DNA from: an uncultured Erysipelotrichaceae bacterium
GTDB lineage: Bacteria > Bacillota_I > Bacilli_A > Erysipelotrichales > Erysipelotrichaceae
Assembly (NCBI GenBank): GCA_945877255.1
Contig: CAMCRE010000005.1
Location: 1-64,000, forward strand
DNA length: 64,000 nucleotides
Direction: 5' to 3'
Part shown: piece after piece, positions 5,555 through 44,083 of the stretch
How positions within the stretch are numbered: the first letter of the stretch is position 1
Layout of the letters: every line of letters begins with the position of its first letter
Translations under genes and position numbers: made by a program
Notes under the pieces: generated by a model
The model's database searches: none
Seen by the model: the letters and a program-made list of their open reading frames with translations, nothing else
What the model was told of the DNA's origin: nothing

Positions 5555-5630
5555 GGGGTTTTAGCTCAGCTGGGAGAGCGCCTGCCTTGCACGCAGGAGG
5601 TCAGCGGTTCGATCCCGCTAAGCTCCACCA
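5555..5630 (+). tRNA. tRNA-Ala (TGC)
   Basis: A 76-base cloverleaf: acceptor GGGGTTT with AAGCTCC, anticodon loop CTTGCAC (anticodon TGC), T-arm CGGTTCGATCCCG, encoded CCA. The Ile/Ala pair usually sits between 16S and 23S rRNA genes; here it stands alone. The ICE starts 17 bases after it. Confidence 0.97.
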
Positions 5631-5646
5631 TTTGTAGGAATCGAAC

Positions 5647-5684
5647 AGCAACTTTACATTTAAAAGTGTAAGGTTGCTTTTTTT
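5647..5684 (+). terminator. tRNA-Ala terminator hybrid carrying attL
   Basis: Left arm 5647-5659 (AGCAACTTTACAT) pairs with GTGTAAGGTTGCT at 5666-5678, allowing G-T pairs, followed by seven T. The 11 bases GCAACTTTACA (5648-5658) recur at 44050-44060, so the left arm is chromosomal and the right arm comes from the ICE. Confidence 0.7.
5648..5658. repeat. attL core, 11-bp direct repeat
   Basis: GCAACTTTACA, identical to 44050-44060. Flanking bases differ on both sides (A versus G before, T versus G after), so the identity is exactly 11 bp. Confidence 0.65.
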
Positions 5685-6130
5685 GCATTATCAAAGGAAA
5701 ATCTTTGATAAATAGATAGCATAAATTGATTCTTTATAAAAAGTACTGTAATACAGTAATATTATACATTAATTTAATGAAATCTCATAGCATAGTTTAT
5801 TATGTACCACTAAAAACGTTATATAACTATTAATATCAGTATATACTTGTATGGCGTTCATAATGATACTTCAGTAGGGATGGCTAGCACCAAAGACTAG
5901 CGAGTGAGCAACAATTTTAATTGGTTAAGTGCTGATACATTTAATGCAATACACTCATGGAAATGTTTAATACATTCGCATAATAAACAGCATCGAAAGT
6001 GAAAAAATTAAACGTGTAGGGCTTAATTTTTAAGTCCTACACATTACTTAAAAATTATTTCTAGAGTCTAGTGTTAAAAATTATTTAATATTAGAGTGTA
6101 CAAATAAATAACAATAAAGGAGGTGATAAC
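5685..6130 (+). other. non-coding left end of the ICE with several hairpins
   Basis: No convincing ORF in 446 bases. Hairpins seen: GCTAG/CTAGC around ACCAAAGA near 5885-5900; AACAATT with AATTGGTT near 5910-5926; and a strong stem GTGTAGGGCTTAA (6014-6026) with TTAAGTCCTACAC (6030-6042), loop TTT, one G-T pair. The last could be a terminator or attenuator before the first gene, although no T run follows. Good ribosome binding site AAGGAGGTG at 6117-6125 serves the next gene. Confidence 0.5.
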
Positions 6131-7171
6131 ATGAAGCAAGATATTATAGAAATTAGTCAAAATCAAGACGGGAAATCGATTTTATATGCACGATTTGAAA
6201 GATTGCATGAAGATGAATACCTATTACTGATGAAAGAGGTAAAGGAAAAGAAAATCATCTATAAAAACATCAAAAATGACATTGATATTAATGAATTTTT
6301 AGAAAAAGTATATTATTTTGAGAAAAACCACAACAAATTTCAAAATAAGATATTTGCATTAAGTTTTGAAATATTGCTGCCTGAAAAGATTAATACAACA
6401 GAAAAAAAACTGAATTTCATTAAGGCGTTCAAAAAACAACTATTAGCAGACATTTCGATTTATTTAAATTGTTTTGCAATGGAATATCAAAAAGGAAGAG
6501 GAACTTATTTAAAATTAATTGTCTTTGAAAGAGTATATATCGGTAAAACAGTAAATAAACGCTATAAAAAACCATGTTACACTTATCCAAAAATTAATGG
6601 TGAAACGGTGCAAATTATGACAAGAAAAGCTAATACAATTATGCGTGATAAACTCGGCAATAAGATTAAAGAATACGTTGTATTTGGCGACAAACTAAGG
6701 TTTTATAATTTCTCAAGCATCAACGAATATCGCATAAGATTAACGCAAATGATTGAAACTGCGATTACAAAAACATTTACAATCAAATATACTGGCTGCT
6801 TAAGATTCAAAAGAAAGACAGTATATGCAACAGCCAATCGTTTTAAACGTGCAGTTGCGATACTAATTAACCAAGTGAAGCAAGAAATAGAAACAGCATT
6901 AAATCAGCACTATTTACCATTACTACGGCAATTAGAAGCTGAAGATGAGAGATATTACATTAAATACTCACCAGAAGCGTATAAATTAGCTAAATTAAAG
7001 GCAATATTCAATGAAATAGAGGGTGTATTCAACCAAAACAAGCTCGTTTTAAATGGCAATGAATACCTAATTAATTATCGATATGTATTGTTGCCGGATT
7101 TAAAGATTAGCTTAGTAAAGCTAAAGCAGTTCTTTTATAAAAAAATCGAAAATTTTTTGAAAAATTTTTAA
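6131..7171 (+). CDS. ICE left-end protein, possible replication or relaxase-like protein
   Basis: A 346-residue basic protein starting at an ideal ribosome binding site (AAGGAGGTGATAAC). I do not recognise a named family with certainty. The N-terminal third has strand-helix character with a run YQKGRGTYLKLIVFER at about 119-134. The middle is rich in K, R and Y (nucleic-acid binding is likely) and the C-terminal part is helical. Position as first gene, directly ahead of parA and parB, is where plasmids and plasmid-like ICEs place a Rep protein; that is the only reason for suggesting replication. The canonical HUH histidine motif is not visible; the clear relaxase is at 36201. Confidence 0.6.
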   Translation: MKQDIIEISQNQDGKSILYARFERLHEDEYLLLMKEVKEKKIIYKNIKNDIDINEFLEKVYYFEKNHNKFQNKIFALSFEILLPEKINTTEKKLNFIKAFKKQLLADISIYLNCFAMEYQKGRGTYLKLIVFERVYIGKTVNKRYKKPCYTYPKINGETVQIMTRKANTIMRDKLGNKIKEYVVFGDKLRFYNFSSINEYRIRLTQMIETAITKTFTIKYTGCLRFKRKTVYATANRFKRAVAILINQVKQEIETALNQHYLPLLRQLEAEDERYYIKYSPEAYKLAKLKAIFNEIEGVFNQNKLVLNGNEYLINYRYVLLPDLKISLVKLKQFFYKKIENFLKNF

Positions 7172-42116: not shown

Positions 42117-42189
42117 AAAATTGTTATTTGGAATAGGAGGTAAACCAAATATGAGCGGAGGTAAAAAAACCGGTCATTAGGAGGTTCGT

Positions 42190-42267
42190 ATTAAAAAGGA
42201 CATTGTGACAATGCTTTACGTTGTTGCGGTCATTTTAGGTTTTTTAGTTTTACTATTTAAAGCCTAA
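42190..42267 (+). CDS. small hydrophobic peptide, candidate type I toxin
   Basis: The frame gives KKDIVTMLYVVAVILGFLVL and a short FKA end: one membrane-spanning segment with lysines at both ends, as in type I toxins. No ATG begins the full frame. TAGGAGG (42178-42184) lies five bases before ATT (42190), giving 25 residues; GTG at 42205 (20 residues) or ATG at 42211 (17 residues) are alternatives. A 9-codon ORF MSGGKKTGH (42151-42180) with its own AGGAGG precedes it. Confidence 0.5.
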   Translation: MKKDIVTMLYVVAVILGFLVLLFKA

Positions 42268-42449: not shown

Positions 42450-43757
42450 ATGAAAAAACATACTGTTAATGTAGCGATTTATATGCGAGTCAGCACTAAA
42501 AAACAAGCTGATAGTAAGTTGGGGTTAGAGGCTCAGGAAAGAAATATCCATGAATGGTTGAAATACAATTATCCTTATCAAGACTATGAAATTGATATAA
42601 CATATTTTGTAGATGAGGCAATAAGTGGTGCTAAATTTGAAAGAATACAGTTACAGAATATGTTAAAACTTATTCAAGAAAATTATTTTGATTTATGTGT
42701 GATTTATAAAATAGACCGTTTAGCTAGAGATATTGAAATATCAGCACATATTAGAAAAGTTGTAATTAATTCTAAATGTGTCTTATGTTCAACTACCGAA
42801 AATTTCGATTTGACAACGATTGAAGGGACATTTGTGTATAATATTAATTCTGTATTTGGTGAATATGAACGTGCTGTCATCAAAAAACGTACAGAAGATT
42901 CACAAATAAGTCGCCTGACAAGAAAAGAATATCCGTTTAGAGCGAGCTATGGCTATATTAGAGATGATAATAAAGTCATGCAAATTAACGAAGATGAGGC
43001 AAAAATAATTCGCTTTATTTTTAATGAATATATGGCGTGTCATTCCTATGAAATAGTTAGACAAAATCTTATAAGCACATATAATATCAAAGTCAGTGAA
43101 GATTTTATTTCGAGGGCGTTATCGAAAACACAATACAAAGGTTGTTTTGTCAAAAATGGTGTAACATATTATGATGTACTACCAGTAATAATTGCTGAAG
43201 ATGTATTTGATACCGTACAAAAAATAAAAAAAGAAAGTTATAAAGCGAAGAGAAGCGAACAGTATTTATACAGTGATTTAATATTTTGTGTCAAATGCAG
43301 GCAAAGAAGCATTAAAAAATTAGTAAAGAAACCAAGAAAACGATACTATTATTACCATTGTGAAACATGTAATAAATACATTAATATTGAAAAAAAGGAA
43401 TATGAAATTAGTTCTACAGTGTGCTACCATGTTTTGGAAAATAAATATACTGAAGATAATACGCAGTATATTAATAGAATTAATTATCTTGAGAAAAGAA
43501 AACAAACTATTATTCATGATTATGCAGTAGGAGCAATAGCATTAATATACTATCATGAAGTAATCGACGCTATAAATGATGAAATCTCAAAATTAAAATA
43601 CAAAATCGCAATTAAAGAAAATTCAATCAACTATAGTCAAATGAATGCAATTCAAAAAACGTTGTTTTATCAAACGCACGTATCAAAAATATATATCAAT
43701 TTTGATAATAAAATTGTCGAAAACATTGTGTTTAAAGAAAATAAAAAGAAAAAGTAG
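42450..43757 (+). CDS. large serine recombinase (ICE integrase)
   Basis: 435 residues. The resolvase catalytic domain starts VAIYMRVSTKKQ, with the nucleophile serine at about residue 15; YKIDRLARDIE and EYERAVIKKRT are conserved helices. The Recombinase domain (about 165-270) is followed by a zinc ribbon with CVKC and CETC (about 285-310) and a coiled coil. It would integrate and excise the element by recombining the 11-bp att cores. It lies at the right end, as usual for such elements. Ribosome binding site TAGGAGGA. Confidence 0.95.
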   Translation: MKKHTVNVAIYMRVSTKKQADSKLGLEAQERNIHEWLKYNYPYQDYEIDITYFVDEAISGAKFERIQLQNMLKLIQENYFDLCVIYKIDRLARDIEISAHIRKVVINSKCVLCSTTENFDLTTIEGTFVYNINSVFGEYERAVIKKRTEDSQISRLTRKEYPFRASYGYIRDDNKVMQINEDEAKIIRFIFNEYMACHSYEIVRQNLISTYNIKVSEDFISRALSKTQYKGCFVKNGVTYYDVLPVIIAEDVFDTVQKIKKESYKAKRSEQYLYSDLIFCVKCRQRSIKKLVKKPRKRYYYYHCETCNKYINIEKKEYEISSTVCYHVLENKYTEDNTQYINRINYLEKRKQTIIHDYAVGAIALIYYHEVIDAINDEISKLKYKIAIKENSINYSQMNAIQKTLFYQTHVSKIYINFDNKIVENIVFKENKKKK

Positions 43758-43780
43758 TTTTTTGCTACTTTTTCTTTTAT
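43748..43780 (+). terminator. terminator of the recombinase gene
   Basis: GAAAAAGTAG (43748-43757), loop TTTTTTG, CTACTTTTTC (43765-43774), then T-rich; the stop codon is in the left arm. Confidence 0.8.
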
Positions 43781-43785
43781 TTTAA

Positions 43786-43814
43786 TTGACATATACACTA
43801 AAATAGTGTATAAT
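43786..43814 (+). promoter_or_regulatory. consensus promoter overlaid by a palindromic operator
   Basis: TTGACA (43786-43791), exact 17-bp spacer, TATAAT (43809-43814): both boxes perfect. TATACACTA (43792-43800), AAA, TAGTGTATA (43804-43812) is a perfect 9-bp inverted repeat covering the spacer and most of the -10 box, so a dimeric repressor bound there would shut the promoter. Confidence 0.8.
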
Positions 43815-44048
43815 AAAGGCAGATAATCAAATAGCTACCAACTATTTGAAACCCTAGATAATATGTATCATCAACATACACATTCATCATTAATTCAATT
43901 ATATATTAAATTAAGATTAAATGCAAGTGTTATACTAATTATCTAGTTCAATAGAAATGGTAAGACACTTTTTATTATGTAAAATATATGTCTTCCGCAG
44001 ATAAGTGGTTTGTGATAGTAATCATAGTGCCACCATATTAAAATTAAT

Positions 44049-44080
44049 GGCAACTTTACAGTAAGTTGCTCTTTTTTTTT
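44049..44080 (+). terminator. attR terminator
   Basis: GGCAACTT (44049-44056) pairs with AAGTTGCT (44063-44070), followed by C and nine T. The left part holds the att core, the right arm is chromosomal. Confidence 0.75.
44050..44060. repeat. attR core, 11-bp direct repeat
   Basis: GCAACTTTACA, identical to 5648-5658. Confidence 0.65.
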
Positions 44081-44083
44081 ATG

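Follow-up and report, generated by a model that had tools for sequence, protein, structure and literature searches.

A promoter beneath an operator-like palindrome and a putative structured RNA at the inferred right end of an integrative and conjugative element in an uncultured Erysipelotrichaceae bacterium

Here we report a promoter-to-terminator unit at the inferred right end of an element that, judged by its genes, is an integrative and conjugative element (ICE) with a serine integrase. The element lies in a 64,000-nucleotide stretch of contig CAMCRE010000005.1 from an uncultured Erysipelotrichaceae bacterium (the window, whose numbering is used throughout). The unit is apparently non-coding and structured, carries an operator-like palindrome and points outward from the element (Table 1). 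We tentatively favour the reading, held at somewhat less than even confidence, that it comprises an outward, operator-controlled promoter and a structured leader, active at the circle stage, which would set transcription past the terminator at the left end of the element.

Table 1. Features of the right-end unit, the element ends and the left-end leader.
Feature	Position	Strand	Evidence
attL core CCACCAT, tRNA-Ala 3' end	5625-5631		same junction at C2 tRNA-Ala and C8 tRNA-Leu (CACCAT)
Left-end terminator, element-borne	5647-5678	+	14 pairs and T-run; copies at two further tRNAs
Left-end leader with AUAAUGAUACUUC, sub-threshold pemK (canT) and dinG match	5860-5942	+	covariance models
First left-end operon ORF, unknown protein; ParA, ParB next	6131-7171	+	ORF calling, domain search
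Large serine recombinase, 435 aa, presumed element integrase	42450-43757	+	Pfam Resolvase 2.9e-25, Recombinase 2.9e-5
Bidirectional terminator of recombinase gene, insulates RNA unit	43744-43778		
Sigma-70-type promoter TTGACA-17-TATAAT	43786-43814	+	exact match
Operator-like perfect palindrome TATACACTA-AAA-TAGTGTATA	43792-43812		unique in genome
Putative structured non-coding RNA, element-encoded part	43818-44035	+	folding; without relatives
Stem	43827-43834/43842-43849	+	pair probability about 0.7
Long-range domain closed by CTAGATAAT/ATTATCTAG	43854-43946	+	pair probabilities 0.86-0.98
Long-range 9-bp stem	43854-43862/43938-43946	+	pair probability 0.86-0.98
Stem	43962-43967/43989-43994	+	pair probability 0.5-0.75
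Stem	44005-44016/44021-44033	+	pair probability 0.6-0.99
Inferred attR core CCACCAT, element right end	44030-44036		7-bp repeat of 5625-5631
Terminator stem of RNA	44049-44070	+	predicted fold
RNA terminator in integrated state, inferred outside element	44049-44080	+	hairpin; inferred att core

The promoter is exact on the + strand, with TTGACA at 43786-43791 and TATAAT at 43809-43814 separated by 17 nt, and such perfect sites number two in the 64-kb window against 0.23 expected. A perfect palindrome, noted in the initial annotation, overlaps the spacer and most of the -10 element; it has a single exact copy in the 1.26-Mb genome, the whole of which yielded no second copy at up to two mismatches. 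Only one of the 55 promoter-like sites in the window (consensus score of at least 10/12), the one at 43786, holds a perfect inverted repeat with an arm of at least 8. The unit is bounded upstream by the terminator of the recombinase gene and downstream by that at 44049-44080. NrdR boxes have the form ACACWATATATWGTGT, and the palindrome was rejected as such a box on account of a spacing that is off by one base and the lack of a tandem box. Three small XRE proteins (10815, 21673 and 28412) had been put forward as its binders; the palindrome is absent ahead of their genes, where the upstream sequences differ, and because it is also single-copy nothing links these proteins to it.

Downstream of the promoter lie about 260 non-coding bases, roughly 215 nt of which would belong to the element. 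Inside the RNA region there is no ORF of at least 10 aa with a Shine-Dalgarno sequence, which bears out the earlier statement that this stretch lacks a supported ORF, and the longest internal frame is 27 aa, from an ATG at 43863. With its terminator included (43818-44082) the region folds at -55.7 kcal/mol (z -3.97, none of 200 shuffles as good); without it z is -3.5 (43818-44045) or -3.0 (43818-44031), and whole-region values against shuffles range from -3 to -4.6. As background, five of 213 tiled windows match or beat the folding of 43818-44035. Folding is no proof of a + strand RNA, since the opposite strand does about as well. Four matched stems had been noted, one of them long-range and 9 bp in length: the stems are indeed predicted, but a perfect 9-bp stem also turns up when the stretch is dinucleotide-shuffled (15 of 60 shuffles), so that the length of the long-range stem is at chance level and the stem alone is no evidence. 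The last two stems straddle or fall outside the inferred element end, the inferred attR core lying within the last hairpin of the RNA.

Searches for relatives of the RNA found none. DNA similarity searches covering 60 relatives, 392 phylum genomes, plasmids and phages gave short, chance-level matches only; a single-sequence covariance model recovered only the RNA itself among 315 genomes of the order (314 others) and had no match in the ICE neighbourhoods examined from the host family. Rfam 15 gave no family at gathering score, and a known RNA family was discarded as an explanation. The right-end RNA is best described as a real candidate, though an orphan, whose function position alone suggests. 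The earlier view of it as a repressible regulatory RNA is partly supported: the sequence shows a discrete promoter-terminator unit with an operator-like palindrome, apparently non-coding and structured, but relatives add nothing.

The element carries an ICE gene set that would supply integrase, relaxase, coupling protein and T4SS ATPase (matches: Resolvase/Recombinase, Relaxase, VirD4 of the CD1115 family, VirB4-like protein and M23 peptidase). Its recombinase has weak NCBIfam matches to CcrB/XisF, and searches of 392 phylum genomes and 272 family genomes gave it a single weak relative, at 25% identity. The genome_contigs set held no relatives of the recombinase or VirD4 and the viral_contigs set none of the recombinase or the ORF 6131 protein, while VirD4 proteins within the host family reach at most 36% identity. 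In a survey of streptococcal ICEs, the integrases found in tRNA genes were all of the tyrosine type (PMC4701971).

The left end can be read from repeated copies of the same junction. After tRNA-Ala the window reads CACCA-TTTGTAGGAATCGAACA-GCAACTTTACA[T/G]TTAAAAGTGTAAGGTTGC-TTTTTT (5626-5683). The same sequence recurs behind a second tRNA-Ala, on contig C2 (100% identical over 286 bp, tRNA included, up to window position 5836), and behind a tRNA-Leu on contig C8 (98% over 58 bp). Both contigs also hold a piece of the right region, similar to 42190-42420 in C2 (92%) and to 42332-42403 in C8 (78-79%), and C2 has a further 41 bp resembling the recombinase gene; we take the sequences on both contigs to be remnants of an element of this type. 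Because the 17 bp of TTTGTAGGAATCGAACA also follow the tRNA-Leu of C8 and the tRNA-Ala of C2, the element must begin at CACCA, and on this comparison its left end is at the tRNA CACCA and it carries its own terminator, 5647-5678. The same sharing of TTTGTAGGAATCGAACA rules out an att core formed by the 11-bp repeat GCAACTTTACA (5648/44050), which would have made the terminators half host and half element. The relics (C2:4648-5113 and C8:599-827) are internally deleted and lie at the second tRNA-Ala and at tRNA-Leu respectively. In the C2 relic the recombinase-like fragment comes before the segment similar to 42190, an order that would fit descent from a tandem or rearranged copy.

For the right end the likeliest site is CCACCAT at 44030-44036, which contains the one occurrence of CACCAT between the recombinase and L31 genes. 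The support for this boundary is one 7-bp repeat; both relics are without a right end and no empty site was seen. The L31-tdk gene order in relatives, used as an empty-site test, was uninformative, since no tRNA-Ile/Ala lies nearby. Once the flanks are joined, tRNA-Ala would be followed, after a short spacer, by the terminator 44049-44080, which makes sense as a native tRNA operon; the predicted circle junction is ...AATCATAGTGCCACCATTTGTAGGAATCG... and the predicted empty site ...AAGCTCCACCATATTAAAATTAATGG....

Several other features near the two ends deserve mention. At the left junction (5607-5646), the tRNA T-loop GTTCGATCCC and the element-side GGAATCGAAC form an inverted repeat about CCACC that agrees in 9 of 10 outer bases, and the same arrangement recurs at the tRNA-Leu of C8 (C8:770-907); it is possibly an integrase recognition half-site that would let different tRNA genes serve as targets. 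Around the right end, small ORFs at 42190, 44297 and 44438 have strong Shine-Dalgarno sequences and ATT/ATA in place of ATG. Their products would be a 26-aa membrane peptide, a 37-aa peptide and a membrane protein, and the ATT start is retained in the C2 relic; these are either non-canonical starts or decayed genes. Upstream of the ORF for the 26-aa membrane peptide, and after the VirD4 gene, there is also a 9-codon ORF, MSGGKKTGH (42151-42180), with a strong Shine-Dalgarno sequence.

On the reading that we favour, a repressor would occupy the palindrome in the integrated element and any transcript would stop at the terminator just beyond it. Excision would join the ends, making promoter and RNA directly face the left-end terminator, beyond which lie the leader of the left-end operon, ORF 6131 and then ParA and ParB; as a regulatory leader, the RNA would govern how much transcription gets past 5647-5678. 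Given the inferred right boundary, the right-end RNA lies in sense orientation between the circle-stage promoter and this terminator. The initial annotation had the promoter of the circular form reading through attP towards the left end, but the 14-pair terminator follows the RNA directly, and polymerase would thus get through only by antitermination or if the terminator leaks. The hairpins at 44049-44080 and 5647-5678 both fold as terminators, and the latter still forms in the predicted circular transcript (in the modelled circle the junction falls three bases short of the core, a difference without effect on the hairpin). In the integrated state it faces an active-looking tRNA promoter, TTGACA-18-TATTAT, and would end transcription of the tRNA operon.

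In favour of a circle-stage leader are the perfect promoter beneath a unique palindrome, its insulation upstream by the recombinase terminator, a non-coding stretch that folds better than shuffles, a direction of transcription that crosses the inferred attR core, a left end that two relics elsewhere in the genome, at other tRNAs, pin down, and a left-end terminator set opposite the tRNA promoter. The layout also has a precedent in Tn916 (PMC11658703), and between the left-end terminator and ORF 6131 there is no + strand promoter-like site scoring at least 9/12, an absence that would suit expression driven from beyond attP but, over about 450 bp, is weak evidence. Against it stand an RNA that has no relatives, hence no visible conservation or covariation, and is unrelated to canT, the persistence of terminator 5647-5678 in the predicted circular transcript, a right boundary marked by a 7-bp repeat only, and a palindrome at 5744-5758 that may mark a local promoter of the left operon. 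This last is a perfect, operator-like palindrome in the left-end leader, TACTGTA-A-TACAGTA, followed by TATTAT, and could flag a regulated promoter for the left operon. A more specific proposal, which we regard as unlikely, casts the right-end RNA as an antiterminator, or as a sensor of the excision state, with no sequence relation to canT, in an element whose serine integrase is directed to tRNA 3' ends and where excision alone rewires the pairing of promoters with terminators; integration would then pair the RNA with the outside terminator and the tRNA operon with that of the element.

The promoter and RNA also admit other explanations. A somewhat unlikely one is that the RNA is an independent small RNA that acts in trans, kept repressed by a regulator of the element or of the host, and pairs with element or host mRNAs. 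The terminators flanking the attachment site would keep its length about equal in both states, so that it would form a discrete promoter-terminator unit whether integrated or circular, and it exposes unpaired loops, among them CUACCAA of hairpin 1. However, pairing with the translation starts of the element, among which an antisense target was sought, was no better than for shuffles (best -38.7 kcal/mol, 9 of 60 as good), the longest exact complement in the rest of the window is 12 nt, and such an RNA too would be without relatives.

At the other extreme, the promoter may be real and the RNA non-functional, 43818-44035 being an AT-rich spacer beside the attachment site with a fold that is partly chance. 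The 9-bp stem seen in a quarter of shuffles (15/60), the equally good folding of the minus strand and the lack of conservation all point this way, but the whole-region z-scores and the small number of background windows that fold as well (five of 213) do not, and a perfect promoter covered by an operator would be an unlikely accident; we consider this unlikely. A function residing in transcription over the attachment site, whereby firing would hinder and repression permit access of the recombinase to attR/attP, would suit a transcript that crosses the inferred attR core from a seemingly operator-controlled promoter, but would leave some 215 nt of structured sequence superfluous, and seems to us quite improbable. 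Hardly credible is a small peptide product: the 27-aa frame at 43863 covers most of the long-range domain, but its Shine-Dalgarno duplex is worth about 0 kcal/mol where neighbouring genes have clear AAGGAGG-like sites, and its ATG is placed at the foot of the long-range stem.

The circle-stage leader that we favour has its closest parallel in Tn916. The Tn916 excisionase sequence led, through a 100% match, to a Tn916-bearing plasmid, pCTN1046 (L099), and canT on that plasmid (L099:2323-2423) served as reference. In Tn916 the integrated element is shielded by terminator T1, and in the circle canT RNA made from Porf7 lets polymerase past T1, a link of conjugation-gene expression to excision through a terminator and an antiterminator RNA that was shown in 2024 (PMC11658703). 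The likeness lies in a right-end promoter and structured RNA directed towards attP, a left-end terminator set against a host promoter, and the first operon beyond. In contrast to Tn916, with its tyrosine integrase, the present element has a serine integrase and a tRNA target; its RNA follows the recombinase gene beside the attachment site, whereas canT precedes xis, and antitermination is here a proposal. The right-end RNA differs, moreover, in sequence and structure from canT. No similarity was seen by BLAST or with the RNA's own model against canT; the canT-family model R2, run on the right-end RNA with filters off, reached 5.6 bits (E 0.1, chance level); an Rfam scan of the RNA to E 10 gave no pemK match; and the signature AUAAUGAUACU is absent from it. 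BLAST and covariance models in both directions thus reject it as a canT/pemK RNA (RF02913).

The sole exact copy of that signature in the window, at 5860, falls in the left-end leader, where ATAATGATACT at 5860-5870 is an exact canT 11-mer; the S3 mutation, which inactivates canT, falls on the first three bases of this 11-mer (a position computed from the coordinates in PMC11658703 and the canT sequence). The leader has the pemK 5' signature AUAAUGAUACUU, yet it scores 17.1 bits for pemK against a curated cut-off of 34.8; it gives 14.4 bits in a full-length, sub-threshold alignment to dinG RNA (RF03082), and is the best match in the window to model R2, at 8.9 bits with E 2 for the whole 64 kb. 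As most of each score comes from the 11-mer that they share, the matches are not independent, and membership of 5860-5942 in the pemK/canT family is about an even call. Even a real member would lie after the left-end terminator and so would not rescue it. The leader at 5836-6010, upstream of ORF 6131, folds well (z -4.6 for 5880-6135), and the left-end leader is possibly a diverged antiterminator.

The Pcirc promoter of ICEclc reads over the joined ends of the circle and drives the integrase gene. The right-end promoter here would likewise read over a circle junction, Pcirc also being placed at the right end (PMC2892462), but differs in that the recombinase gene lies upstream of the promoter and a terminator intervenes. 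The antiterminator RNAs conAn2, EAR and put are structured RNAs that directly follow a controlled promoter (PMC8955417, PMC11658703), as the RNA of the right-end unit would; the right-end RNA matches no Rfam family.

The canT of Tn916 itself matches the Rfam family RF02913, 'pemK RNA', at 55 bits (cut-off 34.8). Pattern scans yielded diverged canT homologues (L110, L121, L145 and L171), which Rfam identifies as pemK RNA; 70 viral contigs that matched a loose canT pattern were mostly chance, and only those aligned over the full core were retained. Within the host family, pemK RNA occurs in two ICE neighbourhoods (L175 and L182) and marginally in a third (L178). As canT belongs to the family and diverged members sit in other elements, pemK RNA is likely to be a family of ICE antiterminators. 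The membership of canT suggests a function for the family, and a standard search could find antiterminators in many ICEs. A second, unrelated type of ICE with a layout like that of Tn916, if true, would suggest convergent design.
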